The position numbers and the translations under genes are program-made. DNA of 35,135 nucleotides from Sneathiella sp. (GTDB taxonomy: Bacteria > Pseudomonadota > Alphaproteobacteria > Sneathiellales > Sneathiellaceae): assembly GCF_029233945.1 (NCBI RefSeq), contig NZ_JARGOQ010000017.1:1-35135 (forward strand), written 5' to 3'. Below are positions 1 to 11,645 of this stretch, in pieces (the stretch's first letter is position 1; each line of letters begins with the position of its first letter). The notes under the pieces were generated by a model, which searched no databases, was not told the DNA's origin, and saw nothing but the letters and a program-made list of their open reading frames with translations.

Positions 1-119
1 CGTTCTGCAAGAAGATCTTCAACATCCCGATAGCTCAGCGTAAATCGAGCATAAACCCAAACTGCATGCTGAATGATGTAAGGTGGGAATCGGTGCCGAG
101 AATATGAGAGATTTTGCAT
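1..119 (-). CDS. IS6-family transposase, N-terminal part, cut by window edge
   Basis: The minus strand from the ATG at 119-117 encodes about 39 residues beginning MQNLSYSRHRFPPYI and running off the left edge of the window. It is nearly the same as the first 39 residues of the complete IS6-family transposase at 10855-11550, differing mainly at the first few residues and one V/L. This is the N-terminal helix-turn-helix region of an IS6-type DDE transposase; the catalytic part lies outside the window, so intactness cannot be judged. Its terminal inverted repeat at 157-168 is interrupted by the IS110-family element that follows. Confidence 0.8.
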   Translation of the reverse strand, partial: MQNLSYSRHRFPPYIIQHAVWVYARFTLSYRDVEDLLAE

Positions 120-168
120 TGATTGATGTTAATCCAATCCCTGTCTCATTCCCACTAAGTTAATGTGA
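1..168 (-). mobile_element. IS6-family element, end portion (interrupted in its terminal IR)
   Basis: AAGTTAATGTGA at 157-168 is the inner part of the same terminal inverted repeat seen uninterrupted at 10737-10755. The outer part, TGACAACACC, is found at 1511-1520, beyond the IS110-family insertion. Joined at the shared TGA they rebuild the 19-bp repeat exactly. The element therefore runs leftward out of the window and originally ended at what is now position 1520. Confidence 0.75.
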
Positions 169-178
169 TGGGATGGAC

Positions 179-240
179 GCCTCCTGTTCCGGCGTTATTT
201 GCGCCATAATGGAAGTTGCAGAACTTCATCAACAGGAGGC
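179..240 (+). promoter_or_regulatory. Structured leader of the IS110 transposase, RBS inside a stem
   Basis: GCCTCCTGTT (179-188) pairs perfectly with AACAGGAGGC (231-240), and the second arm contains the AGGAGG ribosome binding site of the transposase start at 245. Two smaller hairpins lie inside: GGCG/CGCC (191-194 and 202-205) and GAAGTT/AACTTC (212-217 and 222-227). The result is a three-way-junction-like leader that would hide the ribosome binding site. A role in translational control is inferred from pairing by eye, not from a folding calculation. Confidence 0.5.
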
Positions 241-244
241 GACC

Positions 245-1264
245 ATGACAGATATTACGACAATTGGGCTGGATCTGGCAAAGACTGTGTTTCAGGTTCA
301 CGGTGCCGATAAGGATGGCAGGCCGGTGCTGCGCAAGAAGCTGCGCCGGGGCCATGTATTGGGGTTCTTCGCCGGATTGCCCGCGTGCCGGATCGGGATG
401 GAGGCCTGCGGCAGTGCGCATTACTGGGCGCGTGAGCTCCAGGCGCTTGGTCATGATGTACAACTGATCCCGCCGCAATATGTGAAACCGTTTGTAAAGA
501 CCAACAAGAACGATGCCTGTGATGCGGAGGCGATCTGTGAGGCACTCCTGCGCCCGACGATGCGCTTTGCCCCGGTCAAGAGCACCGAGCAGCAATCCGT
601 CTTGATGCTGCATCGGGCACGGGAGCTTCTGGTGCGCCAGAAGACGATGCTGGTCAATGCCTTGAGAGGTCACTGTGGCGAGTTCGGCGTTGTCGCGCCT
701 CAGGGCGCCTCCCGTGTCAATGACTTGATTGTGGTGATTGAAGATCCAAATGACCCGCAACTGCCCTCTTTGGCCCGCGAAGCTCTTGGCTCTCTCGTTG
801 AACAGGTGAAAGCAGTTCAAGCTCAAATCGGCATTCTTGAGAAGAGGCTGATGGTCTGGCATCGCACCAGTGACGCGAGCCGCCGACTGGAAACAATCCC
901 CGGTGTCGGGGTGATCACGGCCACAGCCCTTGTTGCGACGATTGGCGATGCTTCACAATTCCACTCCGGCCGCCAGCTGGCCGCCTGGCTCGGGCTGGTT
1001 CCACGACAGTATTCCAGCGGCGGCAAGGAGCGGCTTGGGCGTATATCAAAACACGGAGACGGTTACTTGAGGAAGCTGCTGGTTCATGGAGCACGAAGCG
1101 TCCTGCTCTGGTCGCGGCATAGGAAAGATAAACGGTCGGCCTGGCTGGAAGCGCTGCTGGCCCGCCGGCCCGTCAATGTGGTTCTGGTGGCCATGGCCAA
1201 TAAAACGGCACGGGTTGTCTGGGCGATGCTGAGCCGGGGCGAGACATTCCGTCCCGTCGCATAA
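245..1264 (+). CDS. IS110-family DEDD transposase/recombinase
   Basis: A 339-residue protein of normal length for IS110 recombinases. The N-terminal RuvC-like domain carries the DEDD set: D10 (GLDLAK), E53 (GMEACG), D90 and D93 (KNDACDAEA). The C-terminal Transposase_20 domain follows from about residue 210 (ETIPGVGVITA), with the conserved Ser region PRQYSSGGKERLGRISKHG giving S257/S258 as candidate nucleophile. I chose ATG 245 because AGGAGG lies at 235-239 with good spacing; an in-frame ATG at 173 would add 24 residues encoded by the structured leader and overlaps the left repeat. The gene looks intact. IS110 enzymes excise the element as a circle and insert it without target duplication, guided by an element-encoded RNA. 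Confidence 0.92.
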   Translation: MTDITTIGLDLAKTVFQVHGADKDGRPVLRKKLRRGHVLGFFAGLPACRIGMEACGSAHYWARELQALGHDVQLIPPQYVKPFVKTNKNDACDAEAICEALLRPTMRFAPVKSTEQQSVLMLHRARELLVRQKTMLVNALRGHCGEFGVVAPQGASRVNDLIVVIEDPNDPQLPSLAREALGSLVEQVKAVQAQIGILEKRLMVWHRTSDASRRLETIPGVGVITATALVATIGDASQFHSGRQLAAWLGLVPRQYSSGGKERLGRISKHGDGYLRKLLVHGARSVLLWSRHRKDKRSAWLEALLARRPVNVVLVAMANKTARVVWAMLSRGETFRPVA

Positions 1265-1324
1265 GCCAGGCGGCGGATCAAACTATAGTGCGAGGGTGAT
1301 GATGATATGATGGCAAAACAGGGA

Positions 1325-1460
1325 AACCGGGATTGATCAAACCCGAGGTGTTGTCCGTGCCCAAAGCCCGATAATGTGACAGGGCGTCGATCCATCGGAC
1401 TCCATCAGGGCCAGCGGTCAACAACACCGCATAAACAGGCCGGATAGATGACTGCAAACC
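1325..1460 (+). ncRNA. Candidate guide (seek/bridge) RNA of the IS110-family element
   Basis: The 229 bp between the transposase stop and the right repeat has no gene, as expected for IS1111-type elements whose guide RNA is encoded downstream. Four words match the recombination partners. AGGTGTTGTC (1346-1355) is the reverse complement of the right target flank GACAACACCT (1512-1521). TAATGTGACA (1372-1381) equals the top strand of the uninterrupted target (161-168 continued by CA). CCATCA (1402-1407) is the reverse complement of TGATGG at the left element end (166-171). ATAGATGA (1444-1451) equals the right element end (1506-1513). The order right-guide then left-guide is the same in both pairs. 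Hairpins CGGG/CCCG (1328-1331, 1342-1345) and GCGGT/ACCGC (1414-1418, 1426-1430) are visible. The exact RNA ends are not known. Confidence 0.7.
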
Positions 1461-1520
1461 CATACTGCCTCAGATCAAAAAACTCTTGCATTTCAGGAGG
1501 CGTCCATAGATGACAACACC

Positions 1521-1761
1521 TAGTAGGAGCACCGTTAGCCCATTTCACGCCATACAGAGACTACGTCGCATTAGTCTGACAGAACTCCATTTTCTCCATA
1601 CACAGGCGAGGCCAGATTAATCTGATAGTGCGTTAAAAAATGTGATTGGCTGTATGAATTCATGCATCGATCAGAATAGAACTTGACATCAATACAAACT
1701 GTATTTAACATAAATTCACTAAGAAAATACGTATTACCAAACTGTCGAATATGAGGGACTA
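1521..1761. other. Non-coding stretch between IS end and CoA-transferase gene
   Basis: No convincing gene is seen. The stretch holds a perfect 12-bp palindrome CAGATTAATCTG (1613-1624), a 10-bp palindrome ATGAATTCAT (1654-1663) and the promoter/operator listed at 1683-1711. The palindromes could be regulator sites for the operon that starts at 1762, but no second copy was found in the window to support this. Confidence 0.5.
1683..1711 (+). promoter_or_regulatory. Predicted promoter with inverted-repeat operator in the spacer
   Basis: A TTGACA -35 box (1683-1688) is followed after 17 bp by TAACAT (1706-1711). The spacer contains a perfect inverted repeat, AATACA-N3-TGTATT (1691-1705), placed so that a bound repressor would block RNA polymerase. 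Half-sites of this style are common for GntR-family regulators, and an FCD-type GntR gene closes this cluster at 9728-10405. The link to that regulator is inference. Confidence 0.5.
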
Positions 1762-2973
1762 GTGAACTATCACAAGCAAAAATCTACCCAGTCGCAGCAG
1801 GGCGCAGACGCGCCATTGGCAGGTGTTCGAGTGCTGGAGTTCGGGCATTATGCCGCTGGTCCTTATGCGACGATGCTGCTCGCGGACTGGGGTGCGGATG
1901 TCGTCAAGGTTGAGCCCCTTGACGGAGAGCCGATGCGGCATTGGCCGCCGCTTGTGGGTAAGGATGACGATGGGACATACGGGATGAATTTCGCAACGCT
2001 TAACCGCAATAAGCGCTGTATTGAAATAAATCTGAAGGATCCGGCGGGTCTGACAAGAGCAATAAACCTGTGTAAGAGTGCCGATATCATATTGGAGAAT
2101 TTCCGACCAGGTGTTCTTAATGGCCTGGGGCTTGGTTTTGAAGATGTGGTTAAAATCAACCCGGACATTGTCTATTGTTCTGTTACCGGTTATGGGCAGG
2201 CAGGGCCCTACAGGGATCGAGGGGCGTTCGATGTTGCCATTCAGGCGGCCAGTGGCATTATGAGTGTGACCGGAGAAGAGCAGGGGGCGCCAGCGAAATG
2301 TGGAGTTGCGCTTGCTGACTATGGGACGGGGGTTTTTGCTGCTTTGTCTTGTGTTACTGCGTTGCGCAGGGCTGAGAAAACAGGCAAGCCGGGTTATCTT
2401 GATGTGTCCATGTTTTCCTGCATGCTCTCGCTGGCAAATCTGCAAACAAGCGAATTTTGGGGGAGCGGTACCGTGCCGAAACGGCTCGGGTCCCGGCACC
2501 CCAAGGCGGCACCCTATCAAGCGTACCTCGGATCCGATGGAAAATGGTTTATTCTCGCTGCGGGGAGCGACCGTCTCTGGCACAAGGTTTGTGACGTGAT
2601 AGAGGCACCGGAACTGGTGAATGACCCGAGGTTTTTTACTCCGGGTGCCAGGGCCGACAACCAGGTAGAGCTTGAAGAGATACTTGCAAAGGTATTCTCC
2701 AACAGCCCTGCCTCGGTTTGGACGCAGAAGTTTGATGCGGCGGCTGTACCTGCGGCAGCAATCAACAACTATTCAGAGGCGCTGGGCTCAGAGCATGTCA
2801 AAGAGACAGGCTTGTTACATCAAATGGAATTGCCTGATGGCGGGCATGTGCCGACCGTTGGAAATCCGGTTGCTTTAAGTGGCTATGATTTCAAGGTTTT
2901 TCATCATCCCGCAGATTCTGGTACTCACAATGATGAGGTGGATGCCGAATGGATCGATGGGGCAAATCAATGA
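1762..2973 (+). CDS. CaiB/BaiF family (class III) CoA-transferase
   Basis: A 403-residue protein of the usual length for class III CoA-transferases, which move CoA between acyl-CoA and a free carboxylate through an aspartyl-CoA thioester. The N-terminal LAGVRVLEFGHYAAGPYA, the NFRPGVL segment (113-119) and GYGQAGPY (143-150) are family hallmarks. D186 in ALADYGTG fits the catalytic Asp (D169 of formyl-CoA transferase). The start is a GTG at 1762 with GAGGG at 1753-1757; no upstream ATG is in frame. It overlaps the next gene by ATGA, so the two are translationally coupled. It resembles the CoA-transferase at 28726. Likely role: activation of the acid imported by the TRAP system of this operon; substrate not predictable. 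Confidence 0.85.
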   Translation: MNYHKQKSTQSQQGADAPLAGVRVLEFGHYAAGPYATMLLADWGADVVKVEPLDGEPMRHWPPLVGKDDDGTYGMNFATLNRNKRCIEINLKDPAGLTRAINLCKSADIILENFRPGVLNGLGLGFEDVVKINPDIVYCSVTGYGQAGPYRDRGAFDVAIQAASGIMSVTGEEQGAPAKCGVALADYGTGVFAALSCVTALRRAEKTGKPGYLDVSMFSCMLSLANLQTSEFWGSGTVPKRLGSRHPKAAPYQAYLGSDGKWFILAAGSDRLWHKVCDVIEAPELVNDPRFFTPGARADNQVELEEILAKVFSNSPASVWTQKFDAAAVPAAAINNYSEALGSEHVKETGLLHQMELPDGGHVPTVGNPVALSGYDFKVFHHPADSGTHNDEVDAEWIDGANQ

Positions 2974-3680
2974 GCAAGTTGTTCGTAGACATCTTGAAAG
3001 TTGAAATGCGCGGTAAATATACGAAAACCCTCTTTCTAAATCGGCCAGACAAGGCAAATGCCATGAATAGTGAGTTGGTTCGGCGACTAACAGAAGAAAT
3101 TGTCAAATGCTATTCCGATCAGACAAAGCTCTTGATTATTCGAGGTGAAGGAAAACATTTTTGTTCCGGGTTCGACCGGGATCCTGAGGCGTTTAAAAGC
3201 GCTGCCAGCAGAGGTTTGCTGGGTGTTGAAATTGAATCGATGCTGCAAATCCTGGCCGGGGCTCCATGCGTTACCTTGGCGCACATACATGGCGCGGCAG
3301 TGGGTGGTGGAGCAGATATGGTAGTTGCATGTGATTATCGCTGTGCAACGGCAGATGCATCAATGGCGTTTCCGGGGTTTAATTTAATTGGTGTATCGCT
3401 TGGGAACAGCAGATTGTCACAGCGAATTGGCCCGGATCAGGCAATGAAACTAATCTTGCAGGCGAGGCGTGTCGGCGCACACGAAGCGTTTAAATTGGGC
3501 ATGGTGACAAATGTAATTGAGATGGATGCAATTGAGAAGTTCACAGCCGAGCTGGAAGTTGTTCTTGAAGAGACGCCCAAGGAAGCGGTGACATCATTAA
3601 AGCAGTCCGTGCGACAAGTGGCCAATCGAGCGTTCGGTTCCGATATTTTTACCGAACATGCTTTGAGTGCATCTAGTTAG
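2970..3680 (+). CDS. Divergent enoyl-CoA hydratase/isomerase (crotonase) family protein
   Basis: A 236-residue crotonase-fold protein. The two oxyanion-hole segments are present: GKHFCSGFD (61-69) and HIHGAAVGGGADM (105-117). The two catalytic Glu positions of enoyl-CoA hydratase are not: the first is D116 and the second is G136 in AFPGFNLIG, where hydratases have LPE. Hydration of an enoyl-CoA is therefore doubtful; isomerase, hydrolase or C-C cleavage chemistry are alternatives known in the superfamily. The start at 2970 overlaps the upstream CoA-transferase stop (ATGA), preferred over an in-frame ATG at 2949 inside that gene. The next gene, the Rieske oxygenase, follows after 40 bp. Confidence 0.8.
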   Translation: MSKLFVDILKVEMRGKYTKTLFLNRPDKANAMNSELVRRLTEEIVKCYSDQTKLLIIRGEGKHFCSGFDRDPEAFKSAASRGLLGVEIESMLQILAGAPCVTLAHIHGAAVGGGADMVVACDYRCATADASMAFPGFNLIGVSLGNSRLSQRIGPDQAMKLILQARRVGAHEAFKLGMVTNVIEMDAIEKFTAELEVVLEETPKEAVTSLKQSVRQVANRAFGSDIFTEHALSASS

Positions 3681-10656: not shown

Positions 10657-10666
10657 AGGCATTGTC

Positions 10667-10713
10667 ATCTATGGACACCTCCTGAAATGCAAGAGTTTTT
10701 TGATCTGAAGCAG
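10667..10713 (-). mobile_element. IS110-family right-end remnant
   Basis: In reverse orientation this stretch repeats the right end of the IS110-family element at 1477-1511: the subterminal repeat GGACACCTCCTG (10673-10684, one change from the intact copy) and the following 30 or so bases ending near TGATCTGAAGCAG. It then loses similarity. No transposase or guide-RNA part remains. The outer flank is GGCATTGTC (10658-10666), close to the GGTGTTGTC that flanks the intact element. Confidence 0.7.
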
Positions 10714-10736
10714 GGCTGGTTCTAAGGCAATACTCC

Positions 10737-10801
10737 GGTGTTGTCACATTAACTTACGGTAGGCGCGGAGAAACCGAAGTAACAATACTCAGGCAGCGGT
10801 A
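10737..10801 (-). mobile_element. IS6-family end remnant
   Basis: The terminal repeat GGTGTTGTCACATTAACTT (10737-10755) is followed by about 45 bp that align with the same end of the complete element at 10803-10866 (shared TAGGCGC, GAAACC, AGGCAGC). In the reverse direction the last codons and stop of a transposase gene are visible (GCTGCCTGA). The rest of this copy is missing, replaced by the complete IS6 element. It lies in the same orientation as the copy at the left edge of the window. Confidence 0.7.
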
Positions 10802-10802
10802 G

Positions 10803-11606
10803 GGTGTTGTTACATTAACTTCCTTTAGGCGCAATGAAACCCTAGTGCTGATATTTAGGCAGCTTTGCTTGCAGATACCCAAGCACCAAATGCTTCAGCG
10901 CGATAATGTTTGAGGTGAGATCGACTGATTAAGTGACGTTGAAAGTAAAAGCTATTGTAAGTCGCGGATTGGATATTGAGAAATCTTTGGGCGGATCCCG
11001 GTGACTTAAATCTCAGCATCTTTCGTTCTCTTCCTCTGACAGGAAGATGTGAATTTTCAGCTCGGTTGTTCGATCGCTTGGAGTCGATATGCTCAGCAGT
11101 TAAGCCTAAGATTCGAAATGCCTTGTGATAGGATTTCAGCTTATCTGTGACGACTTGTGTTGGCGCGAAACCCTGCTTCTTCAATAATTTTCTCATCAGT
11201 TTTAAGGCAGCTTTGGCGTTTCGCCCTGGTTGTATAAGGAAATCCAGGACTTCACCTTTGCTGTCGACAGCACGCCATAGCCAATGTCGTTTACCACGAA
11301 TAACAATGACCATTTCATCCAGATGCCAGATATCGTTGGGAGAAGGGCGGTTGGATCTCAGATTTCTGGCTATTGGGTCGTCAAACTTTAGAAACCATCT
11401 TCGAATTGTTTCGTATGAAATATCTAGGCCTCGCTCGGCCAATAGATCTTCTACATCTCGATAGCTCAGCGTAAATCGAGCATAAAGCCAAACTGCATGC
11501 TGTATAATGTAAGGCGGAAAACGGTGGCGCCGATAGGAGATCTTTTTCATCGAAGAAGATTAATCCAGCGTTGGATCATTTTCTACGAAGTTAATGTGAC
11601 GATACC
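10803..11606 (-). mobile_element. Complete IS6-family insertion sequence, 804 bp
   Basis: Terminal inverted repeats GGTGTTGTTACATTAACTTC (10803-10822) and, on the other strand, GGTATCGTCACATTAACTTC (11606-11587) agree at 17 of 20 positions and enclose a single transposase gene. Length is typical for IS6. The 8 bases on either side (AGCGGTAG and AGTATGCT) are not a duplication, so it arrived by recombination or cointegrate resolution, or flanks were rearranged later. Confidence 0.85.
10855..11550 (-). CDS. IS6-family DDE transposase
   Basis: A 231-residue transposase. An N-terminal helix-turn-helix region (FTLSYRDVEDLLAERGLDIS, about 26-45) precedes an rve/DDE catalytic domain with D78 in DIWHLDEM, D136 in QVVTDKLKSY and E165 in NNRAENSH as candidate catalytic residues. 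The ERKMLRFKS segment after the Glu is typical of the family. The reading frame is intact with both terminal repeats present, so the element may be active. IS6 elements move by cointegrate formation and often assemble direct-repeat transposons, which fits the second same-orientation copy at the left edge. Confidence 0.92.
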   Translation of the reverse strand: MKKISYRRHRFPPYIIQHAVWLYARFTLSYRDVEDLLAERGLDISYETIRRWFLKFDDPIARNLRSNRPSPNDIWHLDEMVIVIRGKRHWLWRAVDSKGEVLDFLIQPGRNAKAALKLMRKLLKKQGFAPTQVVTDKLKSYHKAFRILGLTAEHIDSKRSNNRAENSHLPVRGRERKMLRFKSPGSAQRFLNIQSATYNSFYFQRHLISRSHLKHYRAEAFGAWVSASKAA

Positions 11607-11614
11607 AGTATGCT

Positions 11615-11628
11615 TCCATAGATGACAA
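11615..11628 (+). repeat. IS110 right-junction-like word
   Basis: TCCATAGATGACAA is identical to 1503-1516, the point where the intact IS110-family element leaves off and its target begins. Only 14 bp are shared, so this may be a scar of a third insertion or a chance match; the nearby IS pile-up favours a scar. Confidence 0.4.
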
Positions 11629-11645
11629 AAACCAAGATTGAATTT

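Follow-up and report, generated by a model that had tools for sequence, protein, structure and literature searches.

The window analysed here is the whole stretch of 35,135 nucleotides from Sneathiella sp. (contig NZ_JARGOQ010000017.1), which forms the first part of contig C62 of genome G000. Near its start, an insertion sequence interrupts an IS6-type terminal repeat. The following features were located:

3 to 119, minus strand: fragment of an IS6-type transposase (first 39 aa), truncated by the contig start; host element of the insertion
159 to 165, plus strand: left half of the target, GTTAATG, an inner stretch of the IS6-type terminal repeat
166 to 1510, plus strand: complete IS1111-group insertion sequence with subterminal inverted repeats (sTIRs), 7/3-bp extensions, DEDD transposase and downstream non-coding region (NCR); its rejoined flanks equal an intact IS6-type end elsewhere
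166 to 172, plus strand: left extension of 7 bp, TGATGGG, the right-donor side of the circle junction
173 to 186, plus strand: left sTIR ATGGACGCCTCCTG
245 to 1264, plus strand: IS110/IS1111 transposase of 339 aa (PF02371 and PF01548; DEDD residues D10, E53, D90 and D93; motif GLVPRQYSSG)
1265 to 1493, plus strand: downstream NCR
1486 to 1491, plus strand: TTGCAT, candidate -35 of a circle promoter, whose candidate -10 is GA/TGAT (1509-1510 joined to 166-169)
1494 to 1507, plus strand: right sTIR CAGGAGGCGTCCAT
1508 to 1510, plus strand: right extension of 3 bp, AGA
1511 to 1520, plus strand: right half of the target, TGACAACACC, formed by the 10 outermost bp of that IS6-type repeat; intact copy at 10737-10752 on the minus strand
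10737 to 10752, minus strand: uninterrupted target TTAATGTGACAACACC at another IS6-type end of the same window

The element agrees with the published definition of IS1111. In the parts of PMC11187229 drawn on here, members of this group possess sTIRs of usually 11-13 bp, extensions of 7 bp on the left and 3 bp on the right, a long NCR downstream of tnp and a DEDD transposase of 330-350 aa with the motif GL-P----S(t)G. The sTIR pair at 173-186 and 1494-1507 is perfect over 14 bp, and the NCR starts after the stop codon that ends at 1264. The transposase frame is open, and its 339-aa product matches the domains Transposase_20 and DEDD_Tnp_IS110, carries the DEDD residues as well as GLVPRQYSSG at residue 250, and resembles the solved recombinases of ISCro4 and IS621. 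Extensions of 7 and 3 bp without target duplication are compatible with the site but are not proven by it, since TGA is ambiguous there. Traits of the IS621-like IS110 group, namely an RNA upstream of tnp, a left target guide ahead of the right one and short or missing sTIRs, were not found in the element. In the circular intermediate of IS1111 elements the abutted ends form a promoter (same parts of PMC11187229), and TTGCAT together with GA/TGAT might, as far as can be inferred from the letters, be such a circle-junction promoter. The hexamer CTTGCA near the right end showed no variation across ten close sequences. The bases TTGCA at 1486-1491 are a possible -35 and also belong to a predicted outer helix of the RNA.

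The flanks point to the kind of site that was used. The fragment at 3-119 shares 87% identity with the IS6-type transposase at 10858-11550 (PF13610), and an IS6/IS240-type DDE transposase adjoining the terminal repeat places the target element in the IS6 family. If the insertion is removed by the published 7/3-bp rule, the flanks read GTTAATG followed directly by TGACAACACC, and the rejoined IS6-type end is GTTAATGTGACAACACC. The word TTAATGTGACAAYRCC was found with at most one mismatch at seven sites in the genome, two of which are exact. The IS6 fragment on the left and the intact end elsewhere show that the IS1111 element interrupts a terminal repeat of IS6 type, with 10 bp of the repeat left on the outer side; since both junctions share TGA, the cut can be placed only to within 3 bp. 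An earlier reading of this DNA, made from the sequence only, had predicted IS6-type terminal repeats as the programmed target, and this is supported by the IS6 fragment, the intact end and the relatives found at IS6 ends (see below).

The IS6-type copy with end repeats at 10803-10818 and 11591-11606 is itself flanked on both sides by right-end remnants of IS1111 elements (window 10660-11632). One remnant (10662-10713, minus strand) is followed by TGACAATGCC, the other (about 11611-11632, plus strand) by sequence that is only loosely IS6-end-like. Perhaps an older IS6 was struck here at both ends and was later invaded by a younger IS6.

In and around the NCR, the guide RNA and its words were assigned as follows:

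1326 to 1457, plus strand: guide RNA scaffold, covariance model R1
1346 to 1355, plus strand: right target guide (RTG) AGGTGTTGTC, reverse complement of 1512-1521
1357 to 1369, plus strand: hairpin that sets RTG apart from LTG within the target loop; of its four pairs, one is disrupted in this copy
1372 to 1378, plus strand: left target guide (LTG), made up of five left-target and two core nt
1401 to 1407, plus strand: right donor guide (RDG), complementary to the left element end; covaries at its 5' bases only
1444 to 1452, plus strand: left donor guide (LDG), identical to the right element end plus core

The words named in the sequence-only reading were recovered at these places, some of them with a narrower meaning. 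AGGTGTTGTC (1346-1355) is indeed complementary to the right flank (1512-1521), and the left end (166-171), read in reverse complement, gives CCATCA (1402-1407). TAATGTGACA (1372-1381) does equal the rejoined target, but only its first seven to eight bases or so guide: in 44 held-out relatives the last two columns of this 10-nt word matched the flank no better than permuted ones (13 vs 11.0 and 12 vs 9.4, near chance). ATAGATGA (1444-1451) likewise equals 1506-1513, but this word includes the ambiguous TGA, and by the 7/3-bp rule the element ends at 1510.

The same reading had called the common order of the two pairs hard to get by chance. Of 20,000 dinucleotide shuffles of 1265-1493, 15 contained some 10-nt stretch of the joined target in reverse complement, 53 contained one on the same strand, and none contained both kinds (0/20,000). 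The donor words are weak in the window alone, with the 6-nt left-end word present in 6,158/20,000 and the 8-nt right-end word in 540/20,000 shuffles. By these counts the target pair stands alone, whereas the donor pair needs comparative evidence. The claimed order of right guide before left guide in both pairs recurs in relatives as RTG, LTG, RDG, LDG. With the top-strand complement word (RTG, from 1346) lying 5' of the bottom-strand word (LTG, from 1372), the target words also follow the order published for IS1111 seekRNAs (PMC11187229, in the parts used).

For the comparison, the best 80 of 131 relatives from named genomes were taken together with loci from further genomes. Before any counting, tnp-bearing loci were discarded if they lacked an exact inverted repeat with the expected start and a length of 9 bp or more; 82 elements passed the end finder, of which 79 had flanks and 73 were distinct. 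Two loci of the genus, L090 (G012) and L066 (Sneathiella sp.), represent the same relative with the same flanks. When the NCRs of the 73 elements were searched for words, a 10-nt RTG matched its own right flank at 7.97 positions (permuted 6.76; 0/5000), and a 9-nt LTG matched its own left flank plus core at 7.40 (permuted 6.28; 0/5000). The same-strand control of this search was not significant in the same 73 elements (940/5000). Both words matched well in 38 elements, and in 30 of these the LTG followed the RTG at a distance of 24-34 nt. Mismatches of the RTG, counted in 42 elements that had been chosen because both words could be placed, fell on right-flank base 1 (21) and base 10 (19), with 36 on bases 2-9 together; since they pile up at both outer positions, the RTG is taken to be about 8 nt long.

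In an alignment of ten NCRs from close relatives the words vary within a conserved frame. Read by alignment column, the RTG agreed with its own flank at 7.8 of 9 positions (permuted 5.9; 0/20,000) and the LTG at 4.1 of 6 (permuted 2.6; 2/20,000). These values include the row of the remnant L002, which is offset by one base and gives a wrong 2/9, while a reading by hand gives 7/9 and two wobble pairs. The transposases of L010 and L011 are 96% identical, and their left guides are TGGTC and TAGAC at left flanks TGGTC and TAGGC, respectively.

A covariance model was built from these ten sequences, by which guides are read by column without use of the flanks. It was run against 77 chosen sources; those left out were mostly relatives from beta- and gammaproteobacteria, near-duplicates and IS6 loci. 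From 78 matches, 20 without ends and one duplicate were removed, and of the resulting 57, nine training sequences and one with an N in its flank were set aside, which left 47 held-out elements. Three of these (L105, L025 and L173) have mis-called ends; they were counted as misses in the tests with 47 elements and excluded from those with 44. The LTG matched 4.36 of 5 bases (permuted 1.48; 0/20,000), and the RTG 5.36 of 8 (permuted 3.47; 0/20,000), own and permuted flanks each being tried in four registers for the RTG. A perfect LTG was present in 31/47 elements, and with 30 distinct words among them the matches cannot be put down to one guide inherited along with one site. The own site was the single best among all 47 also in 31/47; the remaining 16 include the three elements with mis-called ends. 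By column, the five left-flank bases agreed in 38, 39, 41, 43 and 42 of 44 elements and the first two core bases in 39 and 42, while the third was weak (20 vs 13.2 permuted). Homologues with other insertion sites thus carry other words that match their flanks, and the guide assignment of the sequence-only reading withstood the comparison by which it had proposed to be judged.

The donor guides were read in the 44 held-out elements in the same way. Over a span that comprises the last two sTIR bases, the 3-bp extension and two core bases, the LDG agreed with the right end at 302/308 positions (permuted 232.7). Its three clearly variable positions agreed in 44/44, 44/44 and 40/44 elements (permuted 22.1, 19.0 and 23.4). 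In a whole-word search the reverse-complement control of the LDG exceeded the permutations as well (5.37 vs 5.06; 0/5000), and it is therefore the fixed-column test which carries the claim for this guide. For the RDG, 224/308 positions agreed by column (permuted 196.6; 0/20,000). The two 5' bases covary with the left end (23 vs 13.4 and 33 vs 15.8 permuted), whereas no covariation was detected at the two core-facing bases (21 vs 22.9 and 24 vs 24.1). Matching the RDG as a whole word was rejected as a measure, with 5.43 vs 5.16 permuted being barely above the same-strand control (5.33 vs 5.12), itself reached by just 1/5000 permutations. The RDG was retained because its outer bases covary in the fixed-column reading. 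The right donor word, not significant in the window alone, is thus upheld by the relatives in its outer part. Covariation of donor guides with element ends, by which a bridge RNA is recognized, was seen in the LDG and in the outer bases of the RDG. The RDG of IS621 also pairs discontiguously (PMC11208160 and PMC11208158, in part).

The core bases were further compared between the left element end and the right flank of the 73 elements. Base 1 is shared in 63/73 (permuted 45.6) and base 3 in 39 (permuted 22.3), and both count as common, while base 2 after the insertion is not (27 vs 26.5 permuted). Sharing of bases 1 and 3 without base 2 fits poorly with a simple two-base core at the chosen boundary.

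It might be argued that the RNA selects the target only, that the transposase reads the element ends through the sTIRs, and that the donor-like words are protein sites or byproducts. An 82-nt seekRNA was sufficient for ISEc11, and end recognition was left open there (PMC11187229, in the parts used); the RDG, moreover, is supported only in part. Since the LDG and the right end read in one and the same sense, covariation alone cannot separate pairing of an RNA from a copied protein site. On the other side stand the three variable positions of the LDG, which follow the right end almost without exception, and a layout of RDG and LDG that repeats the layout of the target pair. Furthermore, donor-binding nucleotides of IS1111 members have been predicted by inspection (PMC11208160, in part), and donor guides are seen in the structures of IS621. 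A guide for the target alone is hence regarded as rather unlikely, and the bispecific RNA is preferred.

In the consensus fold of ten sequences, RTG and LTG occupy the two sides, 12 nt each, of an internal loop and flank a small hairpin; this target loop is closed by a stem with two-sided changes, and RDG and LDG flank a second stem-loop. The words therefore fall within loops and not within conserved stems unrelated to them. In the consensus fold 95.0% of 483 cells were paired, and 10 of 49 pairs had changed on both sides (3.7 in shuffles; 0/500), values which are favoured by the derivation of the structure from the same alignment that scores it. By a second measure of covariation, the number of further pair types, the alignment was not above the shuffles (464/500). 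A predicted helix that joins two guides, RDG and LDG, was not included in the model. Folding the window's sequence by itself gave a minimum-energy structure that was discarded; its stability was unremarkable (z -1.30), and because it was unlike the consensus, the alignment was relied on. An Rfam search of positions 1-3000 gave no match.

With a profile made from the IS6-type proteins in the fetched loci, an IS6-like transposase was detected within 1.5 kb of 13/73 elements (one of the matches, in L066, is weak with 18 residues), and in 10 of these 13 it lay within 120 bp of the insertion. None was present within 1.5 kb of the other 60/73, though some contigs end sooner. IS6 ends are consequently one target among many in this group, and elements without the IS6 label may still have an IS6 target where contigs end nearby. 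A scan of nine plasmid loci, one with mis-called ends, added two cases, L179 and L180. In L179 (Pseudosulfitobacter plasmid, 1-3300), one annotated IS6 carries an IS1111 transposase in each of its ends, the two being mirror-image copies of the same gene.

These neighbours could also be explained if an IS6-type element had carried the IS1111 element along, so that the IS6 neighbourhood was inherited and not chosen by a guide. Several remnants in the genus have the same type of junction, and on a transposase tree of 78 sequences, which omits L148 as well as L066 and L080 (more than two stops in the straight reading), the IS6 label is clustered (3/500 shuffles as low). The label nevertheless requires seven changes on this tree, at least five of them forced by starred branches. 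Relatives occupy different IS6 ends with guides that match each of them, and the IS6 lies to the left of some elements and to the right of others (L032, L035 and L080). The mirror-image strike at both ends of one IS6 in L179 is likewise difficult to reconcile with inheritance, and carriage by an IS6 is therefore considered very unlikely. The weakest explanation, a decayed insertion sequence without functional guide and with words that match by accident, could refer to the donor words, which singly are not rare in shuffles, but is hardly credible in view of the open transposase frame, the absence of the target pair from all shuffles and the 30 distinct words with which held-out relatives match at identical columns, and it is refuted for the family by the column tests of the target guides and the LDG.

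The remnant L002 (C76), which lacks tnp, contains the same guide words as the window, and its right flank differs at two bases. This mismatch could be reconciled only by rG:dT and rU:dG pairs. The remnant (G000:C76, 600-905) has its start roughly 25 bp away from an IS6-type end that is intact (610-625), a layout that might be the leftover of an IS6-mediated deletion. At 11 of 18 right-end-like places listed in the window, L002, L005, L006 and L090-L106, the sequence that comes next is TGACAA-Y-R-CC, a hint that IS6-type ends have been hit many times in this genus. The variable positions after TGACAA are CA, TG, CG or TA, followed by CC, and the guide GGUGUUGUC pairs with all four variants if G:T and U:G are counted. 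This guide was found only in the window (CA) and in L002 (TG). A general tolerance of wobble pairs is not supported, as 16/76 RTG mismatches are G:T or U:G, close to the 2/12 expected if all types were equal. The reading of several repeat variants by one guide through wobble is thus a lead and not a result. It would fit into a wider picture, tentative and on balance doubtful, in which this IS1111 lineage consists of RNA-guided parasites of insertion sequences, whose guides track diverging IS6 repeats with G/U wobble opposite Y/R and whose bridge RNA, with its reversed right-left order, reads the own ends of the element.

Taken together, we assign a probability of roughly 0.93 to the reading that 166-1510 is a complete IS1111 element with a putative bispecific guide RNA programmed for an IS6-type terminal repeat. 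Its basis in the sequence consists of the anatomy, the word matches and their covariation among relatives, the conserved fold and an empty site that is still intact. The downstream NCR of the element would yield a bispecific seekRNA/bridge RNA, whose RDG and then LDG would pair with the ends of the element once these are joined in the circle. With both the target and the donor set of words, the DEDD recombinase would insert the circle without target duplication into the IS6-type terminal repeat, cut 10 bp from its outer end. By analogy, the RNA would be made, bound by the transposase and would direct circle formation and insertion; very probably, the known mechanism of related elements is at work here.

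The relatives provide a natural experiment, in which dozens of elements carry guide words at fixed positions of a scaffold and the LDG covaries almost perfectly with the right end. This bears on the recognition of IS1111 ends, which was left open by Siddiquee et al. (PMC11187229, as far as used here), and makes it testable. A limited search of open-licence literature, by titles and the beginnings of abstracts, yielded no report of IS1111 elements that target IS6 ends with guides following them, and covariation evidence for IS1111 donor guides was also not found in the open-licence literature of this limited search. IS6-family terminal repeats as a recurrent target are relevant to elements that limit or fix one another, and the relatives are a source of natural pairs of recombinase and guide.

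Within the IS1111 family, IS4321 and IS5075 reportedly target the terminal repeats of Tn21-family transposons. As far as these accounts go, they likewise choose the terminal repeat of another mobile element, Tn21-family there and IS6-type here.

That the system is the published IS1111 seekRNA/bridge RNA system, with added evidence on donor guides and on target choice, is well supported. According to the parts of PMC11187229 used here, the IS1111 seekRNA derives from the NCR, is 70-100 nt long, is purified together with the transposase and is required for movement. The present element resembles ISEc11, ISPa11, ISKpn4 and ISPst6 in its downstream NCR, 7/3-bp extensions and DEDD transposase, and it shares with the seekRNA elements the leading position of the top-strand complement word and the natural re-direction between relatives (PMC11187229). 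It differs from them in its target, an IS6-type terminal repeat, and in sTIRs of 14 bp; the donor words seen here are absent from the seekRNA description in the same parts of that paper. With IS621 and the bridge RNAs of the IS110 group, as described in the parts of PMC11208160 and PMC11208158 used, the predicted RNA has in common its bispecificity, the set of LTG/RTG and LDG/RDG and the inclusion of the core in the pairing. Unlike in IS621, the RNA is located 3' of the transposase gene, the order of the guides is reversed in both loops, the sTIRs are long and the core is not CT.
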